Below, one piece after another: positions 7,790 through 16,384 of a DNA stretch of 64,000 nucleotides. The stretch lies in assembly GCA_963969365.1 (NCBI GenBank), contig OZ017746.1, forward strand, positions 496,001 to 560,000. Direction: 5' to 3'. Position 1 is the stretch's first letter. The number at the start of each line of letters is the position of its first letter. The translations under genes were made by a program, and so were the position numbers. A model generated the notes under the pieces. The model had not been told where the DNA came from. It was given only the letters and a program-made list of their open reading frames with translations, and did not search any database. This stretch comes from Asterochloris sp. CNOR1 (lineage: Eukaryota; Chlorophyta; Trebouxiophyceae; Trebouxiales; Trebouxiaceae).

Positions 7790-7950
7790 ATTCCAGAGCA
7801 AGCCACCCTGAGGACAGGTGCAGCTGTGCGCTCAGAGCTCACAAAGAAGTCACATGAAAGAGCGGATGATTGTTGTCAAGGTGCTCACCGGCTTACGGAG
7901 AACTTGGCTGCTGAGCCTTACAGTCACCAGCAGCTAGGTTCGTCACAGAG

Positions 7951-7965
7951 ATGATGATGATGATT
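7951..7965 (-). repeat. LINE 3' terminal (CAT)n tail
   Basis: Five atg units on the plus strand read as catcatcat at the 3' end of the minus-strand LINE. A simple-repeat tail in place of poly(A) is known in several non-LTR clades. It marks the insertion junction. Confidence 0.8.
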
Positions 7966-8509
7966 TAAATTTAAAGTCCGTAGCCTCAATGCACGGGCAT
8001 AGGACTATGATCATTTCATCCTACCAATGAACTTTGCTGAAGGTGTAGGGGTACAAAAAGAAGCAGTACAGGCATATCAAGCAGGTCACTGTACTTGGCT
8101 GGTAAAGAGGGAGCCGGCGCTCATAGCAGGCCTTGGCACTGTGCTGGGCTTCATCACCACGTTGGACTGCTAGCTGAGGTTGCTGCCCGAAATGCAAACA
8201 CCCTGGATCCTGTATGGCGCAGGGGGGGGCTCAGCCCCCCTGACTGGCTTGCCACGCCCTCTCAGCTCGTAGACTTCGCAGTCATGAGAGAGTTATGCTT
8301 GGGTATGACTGTGACCAGCAGTCTTCCCCTCGCAGGGCACCAGGCTCCAAGGCGGCACACCCCAAGCAACAACTCAGCATGGGGACCTTAGGGGAAGACA
8401 ATCATGTGATGAGTCTAGCGCATTGCTATGAAATTGGGGCTCTAATCAGCAGCTGGTAAGCTGGGGACACATCACGGCACATAGAGGGGTCACCCAGGGT
8501 GTCTGTTCC

Positions 8510-11500
8510 TCATTTAGGCCCAGATGTGCCCCCAGTGATGCCCAGCATAGTTGCGTGCTGGAGCAGTGCTGCCCTGATGTATGTGGCCACTCGGCTTGGT
8601 GGTTGTTCAAACAGCGTTGCCAACGACTGCTGCTGCTCCGCAAACAGGTGGCTGTGAGCAGACCGGAGGTCTGCAAGTCCTGGGCAGTGTAGCAGGATAT
8701 GGCTTTCATCCTCAATCTCATTCGGTGACCCACAGATTCGGCATGTCCGGTCCTCTCGCTTGAGCTGGGGCAATAGGTATCGCCCAGTCTGTACGCGCAG
8801 CTGGTGGCTGCTGCACCTGATGCTGGCATAGGCTCTGCGTAGCCTGAAGCCTCTGATCCTGGTCAGGTATGTCTGCATGGCATAGGCCGTGTTGGGACCC
8901 CGCATCTGCATGTAGGTGGCCACGGTGGCGGCCTGGCAGTCCCTGAAGCGCTGCTCATGCTGTTTCTTGCCAGGGGCTGTCTCTGCGCTGCCATGTGCCT
9001 GTAGTGCACAGAAGGGGGCCAAGGAGAGGTCGCGGTACAGCGGCAGGTAGCAGACGCCGTCATACATAGCCCATAGCAGGGGCTCCTTCTGAAGCTTCGG
9101 CTTGAGGTCCCAAATGCGTTGTCTGAACCTGTCCACTTGCCGCTGCCAATGCACTGCCAGGGGATATCTGCCAAACTCAGCAAGTGCAATCAGACTGTGT
9201 GTGTGGCAGTGGATGCCAAGCAATCTGCGCAAAAATTGTGCATGCAGAGACTCAAGCTGCGCTGTGGCTTGTGTGCCTGCTCTGTGGTCCCAGAACCAGA
9301 CCTCACAGCCATAGCTCAATATGGGCAGCACCAAGGCATCAAACAACTTGCAGATGCGGCGCGGGCACGTCAAACTGATCTGTGCACAGCGCCTGAGCAT
9401 GTTGTTCATGGTTTTACGCGCAGCTTCCAGGTGCTCGCCAAGGGATTTGGCAAAGCCCTCCTTGGTGGCTTCAAACCACAGGCCCAGGTACTTGAATGAA
9501 TCCGAGCGCGTCAGGGGGTGCCCACTGTATGTGAAGATGCTGCATTCTTGGCGCTGTGTCTCAAACACCACCACTTCCGTCTTGACCAAATTGACTCTGA
9601 GCCGCCTGTTTTCACAGAATATCTGTAAAGCATTCAGCAATCGTTGCAGTCCTTCTTCACTTGTGCTCATGAGCACCAAATCGTCTGCGAAGAGCAGCAG
9701 CGGCACATCATGAAACATGAGCGTGGGTGCATGGTTTCCTTTAACTTTGCGCATGACCTTGTCCAGCACATCGATCAGCAGTCCAAAGAGGAGTGGGCTG
9801 AGGGGGCTGCCTTGCTGCACTCCTTGCAGGCACCTGAATGCCTCAGATATGCCCCCTCCAGCCCTGACCGCTGCCGAGTCTTGGGCGTACATGCTTTGCA
9901 GGCAGCTCATGAAGTGTCCACACACCCCCAGGTTTTGTAGGACAGCCCACAGCACCCCGCGATCCACTGTGTCAAAGGCCTTCTCAAAATCAACAAAGCA
10001 GCAGAAAAGCTTGCTGTTGTGCCGCCTATATTTTCTTACCAGAATGTTCAGTGTGCTCAGCTGTCCAGCTGTGCTGTGGCCCCTGCGGAAGCCAGCCTGC
10101 GGTGGTGCTCTGAGATTGAGCGCTTCCGCCCACCGGGTCATGCGCTGCTCCATCACTGTGGCAAATAGCTTGGCCAGCACAGGAACGACCGTGATTGGCC
10201 GGTAGCTGTTCATGTTGAGAGGATCCCTCCGTTTTCCCTTGTACACTGCAGTGACTAGGCCAGTGCTGAGCGACGTGGGATAGGTCCCCTTGAGCATGCT
10301 GGTGAACAGCTTGGCTAGGCAGTGTTGCATGTGGAATGGCCCATGCTTCAGCAGCTCTGCACTCATGCCATCGATGCCAGCTGCTTTGCCAGCACTCAAT
10401 TTGCGCAGACCAGCCCGCACATCAGAAATGGTGCAGTCAGCATTCAGGAAAGCATCTGTGCCAATATGTACTCCTGTGATGGTGTCTTCAGGGAGCAGCT
10501 TTGGGACGGCAGCAGATGCGGGATGGCTGCCCAGCACCTTCTGCATGTGCGCAGCCTGGATGGCACTGGACAGCGGGCACCCAGGGCGCCTGCGCCACCC
10601 TGCTATGCGATGAAGATCCGGCAATGAGAGGTGATCCATGCGGCGCATCTCGTTGGTCAGAAACTGTCGATATTTGCGGCGTCGGACAGCCCGGTGCCTG
10701 CATCTTAAACTGTTAGCAGCAGCGTGGTGGGCAGTCAGCACAGGAGCCCTTGCTGCTGCTTTCCACTCACGCCATGAGGCCCAGCATTCTGCATCAAACC
10801 ACACCGGAAACTGGCGGGGTTTCTGGCCCCTTCCCTTCTTCAGGGCAAAAGTCTGCACAGCAGCGTCAGCCAAGCATCGTGTCATAGTCAGGACCCCAGC
10901 CTCTGGGTCTGCACAGGCCGCATCTAGCTGCTGCTGGTCTGCAGCACACAGAAAATGCTGCCAGTACTGCTCCTCCCTTTCGGCCTCAAACTTCACAGCA
11001 GGCACTTGCAGACACCCTGCCTTTGAGTGGGCTGGCTGGTCAGCCTGGCCATTGTAGGCTGGGGGCTCCTGTGCAGCAGGCAGCCTGAACCGTGCCATCA
11101 CAGGGTGGTGGTCTGAGCAGCTCATGTATGGTGTGCTTACTTTCTGCAGGACTTCAAGCCGCTCTGCCCAGGGGTAGAGGGCCGACGAGGCCATGTGGTA
11201 GTCCAGCGTGGTGCGCACCACACGCTTGCGGCCGCGCATGTAGGTGGTCCTGCCAGTTGGGTCGCCATGGACTCTGCCATTGAGAATGAGCAGGGAATTG
11301 TCCTTGCAGAACTGCAGTTGCTGGCAACCTCTCCTGTCTACTGCATGGGGGCACTCATTTCTTCTTTCTGGCACGTGCTCTGGCAGTTCATCTAGAGCCT
11401 GTACAGCATCAGGGATTTCAGGGCCCTCCAGCATCACATGGTCTGGCAAGGTCCCCGTGTGGGCATTGGTGTCCCCACACACCCAGAACTGAACACCTCT

Positions 11501-11962
11501 GGGCAACTCTTGAGAGAGTAATCTCATGTCTGCAGATAAATCCTTGAAAGTGGACAGATCTTTGTGCTTGTGGCCTGGGGGCATGTAGCATGTGGCAAAG
11601 GCAACGTGCTGAGGGTGATCACCCCCCAGGCGAACATGCAGCCACAGGTAAGTGCCATCTGGAGCACATTTCCAAACAGAACAGCGGTCAGCCCACTCGC
11701 GCTTTATGTAGACAGCAATACCCCCATGCGGTACCTTGCCACTTTGTAGGTGGCTGGGGCGCACAAGGTCATGGTAAACATATCCTTGCATGTCAGGCAG
11801 GTGTTCGCCATCGGCGTGCCAGGTCTCTGTCAGGCAAATGAATGTGCAGTTCAGTGCCACCAAGTTCTGTAGTGCATCAGGCATTGACAGGTGTGCTCTG
11901 CTGAGCCCCCCGCGCATGTTCCATAATACCGCGGAGAGCTCGGCAGCATGGGTCCCTTCTCC
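8510..11962 (-). CDS. LINE ORF2: APE endonuclease and reverse transcriptase
   Basis: The first ATG is at 11917 and gives 1135 codons, but the frame is open from 11962, directly after ORF1's UAG. The endonuclease shows the Asn strand LWNMRGG (the Asn lies before the first ATG), LTETW with the metal-binding Glu, GDTNAHTG and CSDHHPV. The reverse transcriptase shows YRPITVVPVLAKLFA, QAGFRRGHST, FVDFEKAFDTVDR, GVQQGSPLSPLLFG and the catalytic FADD. A CRICGSPNE...HILLHC knuckle lies near the C terminus. The protein would nick target DNA and prime reverse transcription on it. All catalytic residues I can check are present. Because the WN strand is part of the endonuclease core, initiation at 11917 would make a defective enzyme; I therefore extend the feature to 11962. 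Confidence 0.9.
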   Translation of the reverse strand, partial: GEGTHAAELSAVLWNMRGGLSRAHLSMPDALQNLVALNCTFICLTETWHADGEHLPDMQGYVYHDLVRPSHLQSGKVPHGGIAVYIKREWADRCSVWKCAPDGTYLWLHVRLGGDHPQHVAFATCYMPPGHKHKDLSTFKDLSADMRLLSQELPRGVQFWVCGDTNAHTGTLPDHVMLEGPEIPDAVQALDELPEHVPERRNECPHAVDRRGCQQLQFCKDNSLLILNGRVHGDPTGRTTYMRGRKRVVRTTLDYHMASSALYPWAERLEVLQKVSTPYMSCSDHHPVMARFRLPAAQEPPAYNGQADQPAHSKAGCLQVPAVKFEAEREEQYWQHFLCAADQQQLDAACADPEAGVLTMTRCLADAAVQTFALKKGRGQKPRQFPVWFDAECWASWREWKAAARAPVLTAHHAAANSLRCRHRAVRRRKYRQFLTNEMRRMDHLSLPDLHRIAGWRRRPGCPLSSAIQAAHMQKVLGSHPASAAVPKLLPEDTITGVHIGTDAFLNADCTISDVRAGLRKLSAGKAAGIDGMSAELLKHGPFHMQHCLAKLFTSMLKGTYPTSLSTGLVTAVYKGKRRDPLNMNSYRPITVVPVLAKLFATVMEQRMTRWAEALNLRAPPQAGFRRGHSTAGQLSTLNILVRKYRRHNSKLFCCFVDFEKAFDTVDRGVLWAVLQNLGVCGHFMSCLQSMYAQDSAAVRAGGGISEAFRCLQGVQQGSPLSPLLFGLLIDVLDKVMRKVKGNHAPTLMFHDVPLLLFADDLVLMSTSEEGLQRLLNALQIFCENRRLRVNLVKTEVVVFETQRQECSIFTYSGHPLTRSDSFKYLGLWFEATKEGFAKSLGEHLEAARKTMNNMLRRCAQISLTCPRRICKLFDALVLPILSYGCEVWFWDHRAGTQATAQLESLHAQFLRRLLGIHCHTHSLIALAEFGRYPLAVHWQRQVDRFRQRIWDLKPKLQKEPLLWAMYDGVCYLPLYRDLSLAPFCALQAHGSAETAPGKKQHEQRFRDCQAATVATYMQMRGPNTAYAMQTYLTRIRGFRLRRAYASIRCSSHQLRVQTGRYLLPQLKREDRTCRICGSPNEIEDESHILLHCPGLADLRSAHSHLFAEQQQSLATLFEQPPSRVATYIRAALLQHATMLGITGGTSGPK

Positions 11963-13234
11963 CTAGCAGCTCCTATCCAGGAGCCACCGGCCGCTGTCGG
12001 TGCGGATCCAAATGCGGTCCAGTCGGAAGCAGCAGGTGATGTTCTGCTTGCGCAAGTCGCGAAAGCGGCCCATGGCCAGGCGCTTCCTCATCTGCTGCTC
12101 AGGGGTCAAATCTGGCTGCAGATAAACCTTGTTAAATGCTGGATGGTGCTTGAGCTGACTTGCAGCACGTAGTACACTGGCACATTGATCTTTGCGGGCA
12201 ACCCGTATGCGCACAGGGGGAGTCTTCCCTGTCGCATTTCTCAGCTTGATGCGCTCTACCTTCAGCACCTCAACACCCTCAAGGTGCAGGCCATCCTTCA
12301 GCATGTCAGCAACCTGGTTCTGAAGCATGCCCACATCCTCAGTGCTGAAGTCCTGTGCATCAGGCCCCTCGCAAGTCATTCCATGTGCCACCACCACATC
12401 CTCATTAGCAGGTACACTCTTATCTGCAGGCTCCGCCGCTCTGTCTGCATCACGCTCCTGAATCACCCGTTCCAGCTGGGTCTGCTGCTCCTCAGTCCTC
12501 ATTTGCGTCTGCCGCAGCCCTGCCTCTACTGCCTGCATTGCAGCCTGGCTTGGCCCACTGGTGGCTGCCGTGGTCTGTGCCTGCTCAAGCTGTTGCACCC
12601 GCTGTAAGGTGGCTGCCAGTTGCGTCTGGGTATCTGTCAGCTTTTGTTCTACTGCACTGAGCTTCTGCTCCAGCTGCTGGTCCCGGCCGCGAAGCATGTG
12701 CTGGACCATTGCCCTTATGTCTGCTTCTGATAAGACCTTTGCAGGCCTCATGTCTGCAGCGGCGTCGCTGCCTTCTGCAGCCTGTGGTGCAGGCGTCAGC
12801 AGCACTGCGGGCCCCAACTCCCCCACCTCAAGGGCGGCAGGGGTGTTGTTACCAGCATCAGCAGCTGAGGCTGCTGAGGCTGGTGCCAAAAGCCCAGTCT
12901 CAGCAGGTCCAGACACCAGCGCATCAGGCTCTGCAGTTGATGCCAAAGGACCAACTACAGGCAATGGCGTCACGGCCATGCTGCCACCTGTCTTGCCACC
13001 TGCCCTGCCTGCTCTTGCATCAGGCAGGCGTGCCTGCTTGGCGAGTCTGCTGCTGTCTTGGCCTCCATCACATTCAGTCAAATCATCGCTCTTGTCGGCC
13101 CAGCGGTTCACTGTTGTATCCTTGCCAGCCCTCCCAGGCTGCACCCTGCTCAAAAGAGGCGGTGCTGCTGGTCGGCCAGGCTTTGGCGCCTCCCGGCCTG
13201 GGCTAGATCTGCGCTGTGCTGAGCTGAGCACCAT
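11963..13234 (-). CDS. LINE ORF1 protein (coiled coil, RNA-binding-like)
   Basis: An open reading frame of 423 codons from ATG 13234 to TAG. The first half is Ala/Pro/Ser-rich and low in complexity. The middle holds a heptad-rich coiled coil (LEQKLSAVEQKLTDTQTQ and onward), which in L1-type ORF1 proteins drives trimerisation. The last 110 residues resemble the non-canonical RRM and C-terminal region of LINE ORF1 proteins (RIRVARKDQCASVLRAASQL, then VYLQPDLTPEQQMRKRLAM). The role would be coating LINE RNA to form the retrotransposition particle. Its stop codon is a UAG after a Cys codon, and ORF2 continues in the same frame. Confidence 0.85.
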   Translation of the reverse strand: MVLSSAQRRSSPGREAPKPGRPAAPPLLSRVQPGRAGKDTTVNRWADKSDDLTECDGGQDSSRLAKQARLPDARAGRAGGKTGGSMAVTPLPVVGPLASTAEPDALVSGPAETGLLAPASAASAADAGNNTPAALEVGELGPAVLLTPAPQAAEGSDAAADMRPAKVLSEADIRAMVQHMLRGRDQQLEQKLSAVEQKLTDTQTQLAATLQRVQQLEQAQTTAATSGPSQAAMQAVEAGLRQTQMRTEEQQTQLERVIQERDADRAAEPADKSVPANEDVVVAHGMTCEGPDAQDFSTEDVGMLQNQVADMLKDGLHLEGVEVLKVERIKLRNATGKTPPVRIRVARKDQCASVLRAASQLKHHPAFNKVYLQPDLTPEQQMRKRLAMGRFRDLRKQNITCCFRLDRIWIRTDSGRWLLDRSC

Positions 13235-13302
13235 GCGATCAGTGTCAACAGCAGATCGCCTGAACTGAGAGTCTCAGTTTTTCTCAGATCCAGCTGTCCT
13301 GG

Positions 13303-13334
13303 AGTTGCCTCCCGACCAGAGTTGCCTCCCGACC
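13303..13334. repeat. 17-bp-period tandem repeat at LINE 5' side
   Basis: Two identical 15-base blocks (agttgcctcccgacc) start at 13303 and 13320. They lie between the LINE ORF1 start and the next gene and could be part of the LINE 5' UTR or of the neighbour's promoter. Confidence 0.6.
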
Positions 13335-13387
13335 TAAGTACTAGGTCAATAAACCCTAGCGCGCCAAAGTGTCCTAGATCGACCTTC

Positions 13388-16384
13388 ATGCAGCACTACC
13401 AGGTGCCATCTGTCGAGTACAGCAGCTACATCAACCATGTCATCAGCCTGGGGCTGGCTGAGGACTACACAGCACAACTGCGTGCCAGCTGCTCCTCAAA
13501 CAGCCCCCCTTCCCTCAGAGCGGCCATTGATCAAGCCTGCAGACACCTATCTGGAGTGGTGGATGATCTCCAGCCAGTGCTGGTCTCTGCCCCTGGTGTG
13601 CACAGTTTAGAGGCTTTGGGCCAACAGAATGGAGCACCAGTCTCAGATGCAGCAGTTGGCTTGGCAGCAGCAATGCCTAACACTCCTGAGGAGGAAGCTC
13701 GTATCCTACAGCTCACCCAGCTCATCAATGCCCGACATGGTGCGGCTAAGCCACAGAACACAATCCAGGCTGAAAAATCAGCTGCCAAGCTTTGGAGGGT
13801 AGGCACTGCATGGCCTTTTCTCCTGTTCTTATGGCTTCCTTGAGGCTTCCAAGGCCATGCCACTCACACACATGTGGTCCTGCAGAGATACTGTGAGCAG
13901 GAGGCGCACCGTTACCCTGATGGCGACCTCATGTCTCAGGCCAAGATTCTTGAGTTCTCGATGTGGCTTGTGGATGTGGCAGTGCAGCAGAATGGTGCTC
14001 GCTACTCATTCAGCAGCGTGGGGTGAGAGGCCCCTCCACTGCTGTGTCTGAGCTGCGCTCATGTCCCACCCTTCCCAACCCTTGGCCTGCTGCATGCAGT
14101 GATTATCTATGCCACCTCAAGGAAGTCCGCAGAGAGCAGTACTCAGAGGGCCGCATCACCTCAGATGTACCTGCACCCCTGGAGATTCAAGCAGTCAGGG
14201 ACTTGCTCCGTGCACGTGGCAGGGAGATGCAGGCTGAGAACCTCAATGCGCAAGTGGCAGCTCAGGTGGGTACCGGCCTGGTCAGAGCGTCTTGTGCAAA
14301 CAAAATGATGGCATGTCTGACACCAGCTTGTTGCTTGCATCTGCAGGTGGATGCCGCACTGAGTGCAGAGCAGCTTCGCCAGTCCCTGCAAGCAGCTTTC
14401 CAGCAGAAGCAATGGCAGTGGACCTATCTGCTGAGGATGGCAATGACGTTCATGCCAGCCACACTGGGCCGCTCTGATGACCTGCGCAAACTTCCCTGGA
14501 GCTGCCTGGCACTGAGGACGCAGGATAATGTGGGCCCAGTGCCCTCTGTGGCAATCTTGTTTGGTAGCATGCAGGGGAAGACTGTGAAGCCTGGGCAGGT
14601 GGATATTCCTGGTGTTGTCAGGTATGCGCATTCAAGCTCAGACATAGTTGAGCTGTGTGCTGCAGTGTGTTTTCACTTGTTATGCCTCCTCTGCCACAGG
14701 TACAGAGACCATCGCATCTGTCCTCAGGCAGCGCTTGCCGACCTGGCTGTCGCCACCTTCCACAGGGGCATCAAACTTGAGGATCTGGCCAAGTTCATTG
14801 TTGCCGCCCCTAGCATGCAGGGGAACCAGCCCATGAGTGGGGAGACTCTCAACGTTCACCTTCGGCAGGCTTTTGAACTTGCTGGTGAGCCAGTGCATCA
14901 ATGCTGCAGCTTTTGGACACAGCTGTCGGTAACATCTGTGGCTTATTACACCGCAGGCGTGCCCTGTGGCAGGCTTGATGGGTACTCAGCGAAAGGGGAG
15001 GTCAGCCACAAATTTAAGAAGCATGGTGTGGAGGCGGCTAAGAGCGTGGGCATCAACAAAGCGGAGATCAAGATGGCGGCGAGGTAGGCAACTCAGGCCA
15101 TGCTGTGCATCCTGAACAGTATTGTCTCCAGCTGGTTGACCATTGTCATGCCTTTGCAGGCATGAGTCCGACACCACAGACCTGTATTGCATCTTTGACC
15201 CGGACACAGCCCACAGGCTGGCTGGTTGGGGACGGGACTGGCATGAGAATCATCGCTTGGGCCAGGCTGATTACAAGGTAGGGTCACTGTAGTGCCAGTG
15301 CTTCTCACAGAAGTCACCAAAATCTTGGGAGGGGGGGACTGATCCGATTGTGTTCTGCAGGCTGAGCAGGACGTGCTGGACCGCATCATCCCAGGCTTGA
15401 CAGTGCTCCTGCGCCAAGCTGGCATGCGATGCCACCCTGCACATCCTTTGCTGGCGCCCTTGAGGGCCATCGACCACCTGCGGCAAGTGTTCGTGCAGAA
15501 TGCCAGCTTGAGAATTGATTCATATGGGGACCAGTGGCTCCGCACCATCCCGCCAGCCGCCAGCCGCCTTCTGCAGAGCGCTGTAGGCAAGCAGCTGCGG
15601 CAGGAGACATGGGATAAACACGTTGCTGCTGAGGCAGTTCTCAGCGACAGGAATTTGTTGTTCACCAACCCAACGGTGAGCGCTGCGGCCCCTAGGTGGT
15701 GTAGTCAAACATGCATTGCTCTGACCCTTTGCCCTTCCATGTCGCAGGCTTTCTTCTTCAAGACGCTGGGTGGAATGGAGGCCATGCCTATGCCTCTTGC
15801 CCCGGTTGTGATGCTGCCTCAGGTGCCTCTTTCCGGTGTTCAGCCCCCAGCATCAGCCAAACCCATCCCATGGGTGCCTCTGCCTTCACAGGCCAGCTAT
15901 GGCGTTACTCTGCCGCCTCAGTCCCTCAGTGCGCTGAGCGCCTTGGATGAGAGGGACTCCTTTTTGTTCGAGAAGCAGGTGTGTAGTCAATCGCCTTCCA
16001 GCTTGAGCGCCTGTCTACTGGTCAGACTGTACTTCCCCTTGTCAGCTGCAGGTCTGGAAGCTCTCAGAATTTCAAACAGTCCCAGAAGCATTTGAGGCGT
16101 TCTCCAAGATCTCAGCGGTGCCCTCAGACCTCCGCAGGTGGCATGGCAGCAAGAAGGATGCAAGGGCCAGCAGCACGGCCTTCTCGAGATTCAAGAACGG
16201 CCTTGCTGCTGAGGTCAGGAACCGCATGGCTGCCTTGGGAAGCACCATGGCTGTTGTTGTCGGGGCTTTAGAAATGGAACGTCGGCGCCTCCCCGCCACC
16301 AGGACAGTCAGCTCACTGCAGCAGCTATGCAGCAGGTACAGCAATGATTGCAAGCTACTTGGCAAGCGTAAGCAGAGCGGCTGA
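13388..16384 (+). CDS. Tyrosine-recombinase/NDC10-like DNA-binding protein (Crypton-related)
   Basis: Ten exons (13388-13798, 13886-14022, 14100-14265, 14347-14621, 14700-14884, 14957-15083, 15160-15277, 15361-15675, 15748-15978, 16052-16384) join in phase to 765 residues. The middle reads like the tyrosine-recombinase fold found in Cryptons and in NDC10/CBF3 domains: an N-terminal helical domain, an arginine box TLGRSDDLRKLPW, a strand FGSMQGKTVK with a Lys, then the HxxK-type block SHKFKKHGVEAAKSVGI with KAEIKMAARHES and a Tyr in TTDLYCIFD. The canonical second box is HxxR; here Lys replaces Arg, so recombinase activity is doubtful. The C-terminal 200 residues are Pro-rich, then basic and helical (RRWHGSKKDARASS). 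I infer DNA binding in the nucleus. Nine clean introns suggest a host-style or domesticated gene; an intact Crypton is the alternative. Confidence 0.65.

Follow-up and report, generated by a model that had tools for sequence, protein, structure and literature searches.

Single-frame ORF1 and ORF2 of LINEs in Asterochloris sp. CNOR1 are separated by a conserved UAG, which suggests translation of the endonuclease-reverse transcriptase by stop codon readthrough

The window analysed here is a stretch of 64,000 nucleotides from Asterochloris sp. CNOR1 (contig OZ017746.1, positions 496,001 to 560,000), and its minus strand carries a nearly full LINE (Table 1). The 3' end of this element bears an (ATC)n-type tail and its 5' end lies at or beyond the limit given in the table, which is that of the longest stretch common to other unlinked copies. 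ORF1 ends with the codons AGG AGC TGC TAG. Reading of the open reading frames confirmed the claim of a first-pass annotation that the frame of ORF1 continues behind this UAG, stays open for 15 codons up to an ATG and then runs through the whole of ORF2, so that the UAG is the sole stop of the shared frame ahead of ORF2's own stop. The 15 sense codons read ...SAVLWN, with TGG AAC (the W-N motif) as the last two, and the interval originally marked (11918-11965) comprises exactly the UAG and these codons.

Table 1. Features of the LINE, of its ORF1-ORF2 junction and of other retroelement clusters
Feature	Position	Strand	Basis or remark
Family A LINE copy	7950..13297	minus	stretch shared between copies; ends and tails
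ORF1, 423 aa (interval includes the UAG stop)	11963..13234	minus	ORF reading; homologous to family B ORF1
ORF2 (LINE endonuclease, reverse transcriptase, Cys-rich C-terminal end), 1150 codons from stop to stop	8510..11962	minus	
UAG between ORF1 and ORF2	11963..11965	minus	present in 37/37 collected spanning copies, three families
15 codons from UAG to first in-frame ATG	11918..11962	minus	first endonuclease strand and W14-N15
Run of 10 purines (GGAGAAGGGA) immediately 3' of UAG	11953..11962	minus	as in type III contexts, available text of PMC3542737
Out-of-frame AUG that a ribosome scanning past the UAG encounters first	11947..11949	minus	second at 11922-11924
Predicted hairpin downstream of UAG	11898..11946	minus	weak support
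AAC codon, catalytic Asn (N15 of ORF2)	11918..11920	minus	
First in-frame ATG of ORF2	11915..11917	minus	adjoins the catalytic Asn codon
Reverse transcriptase clusters (genome G000)	C2 2.275-2.295 Mb; C4 3.178-3.197 Mb; C9 2.161-2.192 Mb; C13 0.578-0.605 Mb; C15 1.099-1.125 Mb		

ORF2 matched the Pfam families RVT_1 (E 1.4e-33) and Exo_endo_phos (E 1.8e-8, beginning at the W, residue 14), and the best ten PDB matches of its reverse transcriptase were LINE-1 ORF2p, R2 and other reverse transcriptases. It thus encodes a reverse transcriptase of the LINE kind, preceded by an APE-like endonuclease at the N-terminus that has the W-N, E and SDH motifs. The copies are dispersed, frequently 5'-truncated and end in a simple-repeat or poly-A 3' tail, as is characteristic of APE-type LINEs. 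A site-specific LINE was ruled out, since the flanks differ between copies. For ORF1 no PDB match was obtained up to E 1; against Pfam, the member tabulated had nothing above a curated cut-off (best E 0.016 among three). With Rfam, nothing in the window reached the gathering threshold, and searches for relatives in viral contigs, genome contigs and phages yielded no confirmed match. A bacterial promoter scan was uninformative for this eukaryote.

To find further copies, we searched the genome (56.4 Mb, 21 contigs); the searches score the best candidates only and, thus, all copy numbers are lower bounds. Three LINE families were found, and their comparison is one within a single genome: family A, which includes the copy of the window, family B (ORF2 55% identical to A) and family C (endonuclease at 31-35% identity). 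ORF1 is homologous between A and B (29% identity), and ORF1 of A was aligned to family C at 24%, a value that carries no significance test. At least 20 places match a 701-nt junction query of family A; 18 of them span the UAG and two (C12; C1:3.71 Mb) are 5'-truncated within 60 nt past it. The family A copies are nearly identical to one another, and at least 12 have both ORF1 and ORF2 complete and open. ORF1 was open in frame over 498 codons in three (L045, L049, L050) of six B copies inspected upstream and broken or truncated in the other three. In family C a break or truncation was present in each of the three copies whose ORF1 was read far upstream, and frame shifts further up ORF1 also occur in some decayed B and C copies. 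A search for a fourth family brought no gain: five WN-motif matches (L060, L064-L067) were read as chance, and two diverged reverse transcriptase copies (L080, 79% to A; L075, 48%) had no recognisable ORF2 start in the short segments retrieved around the expected position of the junction.

Several observations concern the surroundings of the copies and other repeats. The 5' flank of the LINE in the window (13322-14601) recurs at 88-93% identity beside other A copies (L028, L032, L038) and, thus, several A copies lie in or beside another repeated element; three ORFs tried in this flank matched no Pfam family at E 0.01. The 5' ends of family A copies (13243-13297 in the window) differ from one another, some having a repeated CAGCTTTGGAGGGTCC leader, and this suggests that 5' UTRs are changing among young family A copies. 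A second kind of reverse transcriptase (L084, L085, L087) reads by eye like that of LTR (gypsy-like) elements and is concentrated in dense groups on a number of contigs, which recalls the retroelement clusters of centromeres.

Thirty-seven collected copies span the ORF1-ORF2 junction (18 of family A, 15 of B, 4 of C). All of them carry C-UAG-G, and a sense codon, UAA or UGA was found in none. The frame is kept through W-N in 36 copies. The exception is a decayed C copy (L069) with a 1-nt insertion at the W-N codons and a GTG replacing the ATG before W-N. Family C thus shows ORF1 meeting the UAG in the frame of the following codons in all four copies, and continuation of this frame through W-N in three. 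The first-pass annotation had expected the UAG and the frame to be conserved while synonymous sites vary, with neither a sense codon nor a frame offset in other copies. This is what we observed, except for the frame offset between UAG and W-N in the single decayed C copy.

When we counted identical codons among identical amino acids, we obtained 269 for A-B, 66 for A-C and 58 for B-C, as compared with 219.5, 54.4 and 53.2 expected at saturation; synonymous sites between the families are near saturation. Because the same UAG stands in three divergent families with near-saturated synonymous sites, its conservation reflects more than recency or chance. The tail of ORF1 differs between families (that of B has an extra proline-rich stretch before the stop). 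Despite these differing tails, the UAG and the frame are kept, and in A and B the distance to W-N stays at 13 codons. A chance nonsense mutation amplified from one source copy would be in line with the near identity of the family A copies, but it is contradicted by the same UAG in B and C at such divergence, and we assign it a practically negligible probability.

The open frame across the UAG could also be explained if UAG were a sense codon in the host and ORF1 and ORF2 formed one ordinary ORF. Histone H3 ends in GERA, and the eight histone H3 genes have five TAA, two TGA and one TAG at their ends, with the TAG directly following GERA. Moreover, there is no in-frame TAG in ORF2 of family A (1150 codons), B (1148) or C (457). 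UAG is a genuine stop in this host, and the sense-codon explanation is exceedingly unlikely.

The codons between the UAG and the ATG belong to the endonuclease. W14, N15, E46 and S283-D284-H285 do not vary in an alignment of the three families, and a family profile aligns W-N with the W-N of the exodeoxyribonuclease 5cfe (B. subtilis ExoA, E 1.6e-4). An AlphaFold model of modest quality (mean pLDDT 55, pTM 0.62) found its best PDB matches in human LINE-1 endonuclease structures (best E 3e-9), and its first strand consists of residues 8-15, all of them before Met16. These data support the earlier proposals that the first APE strand and the catalytic Asn are encoded between UAG and ATG, and that a start at the ATG, which directly follows the Asn codon, removes this residue. 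According to the model, translation from the ATG would give an ORF2 product devoid of the first strand as well as the Asn.

Comparison of A with B over 13 of these codons gave 9, 8 and 4 identities of 13 at the first, second and third codon position, respectively, and 7 of 12 residues were identical in the ORF2 frame, as compared with 3 of 12 in either of the other frames. Of 12 within-family changes located before the W, 6 were synonymous versus 26% expected (P 0.06); the numbers are small and this excess alone is not significant at the 0.05 level. Read in the ORF2 frame, the stretch from UAG to W-N looks protein-coding and, thus, a conserved stop is followed by an in-frame extension apparently conserved as protein, as expected for type III readthrough.

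Re-initiation at the first in-frame AUG (11917) would yield an ORF2 protein without first strand and Asn. Such a start is compatible with the presence of an AUG directly after W-N in every family A copy (18) and in 14 of the 15 from family B, but the upstream codons are conserved as protein between A and B, and out-of-frame AUGs come earlier. It would also sacrifice a residue that is required in other LINEs: according to the accessible text, Asn mutants were cut to 1% of wild type in LINE-1 and to under 5% in Zorro3 (PMC1965478). We therefore regard this start as very unlikely. In the remaining B copy, the decayed L053 (G000 C2:2309740), CTG replaces the ATG after W-N and the UAG is intact.

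No start codon that would keep the Asn is available in families A and B. Between UAG and W-N neither AUG nor any of the nine near-cognates (CUG, GUG, UUG, ACG, AUA, AUC, AUU, AAG, AGG) occurs in frame, and the in-frame AUG is preceded by two out-of-frame AUGs in A and by one in B. A re-initiating ribosome could therefore retain the Asn only by way of an exceptional start. In family C, three of four copies have ATG, and the fourth GTG, in frame two codons ahead of the W; hence, the initial expectation that no in-frame ATG lies upstream of W-N held for A and B but failed for most C copies. In one C copy (L068) the stretch from the UAG to W-N contains TTG, ATC and ATG in frame, so that family C alone does not decide about re-initiation.

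Termination followed by re-initiation at a non-AUG codon shortly past the UAG would give a separate ORF2 protein that keeps its Asn. Coupled termination and re-initiation has been reported for the LINE SART1, as far as the available text goes (PMC5972666), and the in-frame codons of L068 would permit it. However, an overlapping or adjacent stop and start of the SART1 kind is absent from A and B, in which no in-frame start lies within 13 codons, and re-initiation would not require a shared frame. We consider this explanation quite unlikely. The first-pass annotation had named readthrough or non-AUG re-initiation as the simpler readings; the former is the best supported explanation and the latter is weakened by the lack of near-cognate codons in A and B.

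ORF2 might also be translated from a separate mRNA, either a spliced form with an intron ending at the UAG or the product of an internal promoter with its own leader. CUAG|G fits the consensus of 3' splice sites, and C-UAG-G is present in every spanning copy of the three families. A promoter at the junction has been described for Tca2 (PMC2194720). However, a separate mRNA leaves unexplained why ORF1 and ORF2 share one frame at the UAG in three families, and a promoter alone would be insufficient because A and B lack a downstream start codon that keeps W-N. None of the loci read has foreign sequence abutting the UAG precisely at its 3' end, and the nearest break (C12) lies a few nucleotides further on. 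Taken together, these findings make a separate mRNA unlikely.

According to the available sections of PMC3542737, type III readthrough generally involves a UAG followed by G or by a purine-rich octanucleotide, together with some RNA structure on the 3' side; the context is UAG-GGR in tombusvirids and UAG-G in gammaretroviruses. The junction reads UAG-GGA in family A (10 purines), UAG-GAA in B (11 purines) and UAG-GGG in C (3 purines); A and B thus have both the 3' G and the purine octanucleotide, and C has UAG-G only. The resemblance of UAG-GGA to leaky stops, which had been pointed out before, therefore fits the type III class as outlined there (PMC3542737). The two strands of the window together contain 718 UAGs, two of which precede at least nine purines, and the junction UAG is one of these.

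A hairpin downstream of the UAG was predicted in A and B from differing sequences. In comparison with synonymous shuffles, the signal was clear in A only, marginal in B and not supported in C (4, 39 and 281 of 1000 shuffles for A, B and C), and it was weaker in a 30-codon window (83, 113 and 269 of 1000). Among ORF2 windows the junction ranked fifth of 76 in A, with four windows scoring lower, and it was absent from the six lowest windows listed for B (of 76) and C (of 29). The predicted hairpin begins 16-18 nt past the UAG versus the usual 8 nt given in the available text (PMC3542737). A stimulatory hairpin is thus weakly supported, and we do not take it as proof of readthrough.

Programmed readthrough of the UAG in a type III-like context, which would produce a minor ORF1-ORF2 fusion protein in gag-pol fashion, is the explanation we consider highly probable on the basis of the sequence comparisons. 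In this reading the LINE has been active recently, and the dozen or more family A copies with both ORFs complete speak for the reading. Most ribosomes would stop at the UAG and release ORF1p, and a minority would insert an amino acid there and continue into a fusion of ORF1p, endonuclease and reverse transcriptase of about 1570 residues. Readthrough would thereby set a high ORF1p:ORF2p ratio, similar to retroviral gag/pol readthrough. We infer that readthrough takes place at a rate that would keep the fusion minor, and that the fusion would be the active enzyme. The three purines after the UAG in family C and the in-frame ATG before W-N in three of its four copies are points against readthrough. 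With less confidence, although we still favour the idea, all endonuclease-reverse transcriptase may be made as such a fusion, a gag-pol strategy independent of retroviruses, in which the polymerase would be brought into the RNP by the ORF1 domain that it carries, and the stoichiometry would depend on the leak rate.

In the literature covered, the sole proposal of readthrough for a LINE that we found concerns Group 3 of Paramecium; subscription literature was thinly represented, so that an earlier report is possible. In Paramecium UAG is a sense codon, and the stop of this group should therefore be UGA. As in the present LINE, ORF1 and an APE-RT ORF2 of Group 3 lie in one frame and read-through was suggested, but the group belongs to a ciliate clade and the proposal was made from consensus sequences, as stated in the available text (PMC5405496). 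Gammaretroviruses and tombusvirids share with the present LINE the UAG followed by G and purines, and an abundant upstream product with the polymerase as its extension; these systems are viral and use a nearby pseudoknot or long-range pairing, whereas the hairpin of the LINE is only predicted (available sections of PMC3542737). SART1 and mammalian LINE-1 also have bicistronic LINE RNAs, for which coupled ORF2 translation was proposed, but SART1 has an overlapping stop-restart site and LINE-1 a 63-nt spacer, and neither is described as in-frame readthrough in the portion of the paper available (PMC5972666).

Zorro3 of Candida albicans is likewise a LINE with an APE endonuclease and a required Asn; in contrast to the present element, multiple stops separate its ORFs and its ORF2 needs its own ATG, according to the accessible text (PMC1965478, PMC7175516). 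Candida Tca2 has a comparable layout, its stop being UGA with a potential pseudoknot; when placed in a yeast reporter, the Tca2 junction did not direct readthrough, although pol came from the long RNA, as far as the available text reports (PMC2194720). New in our data is a LINE lineage with a conserved UAG-G, with no alternative start in two families and with three families to compare.

The translation of the second ORF of LINEs is unsettled, and families A and B leave few options besides readthrough. The many near-identical and apparently young copies make readthrough directly testable. If it is true, the type III UAG signal of viruses would extend to a cellular LINE, and the element would provide a natural ORF1-polymerase fusion.
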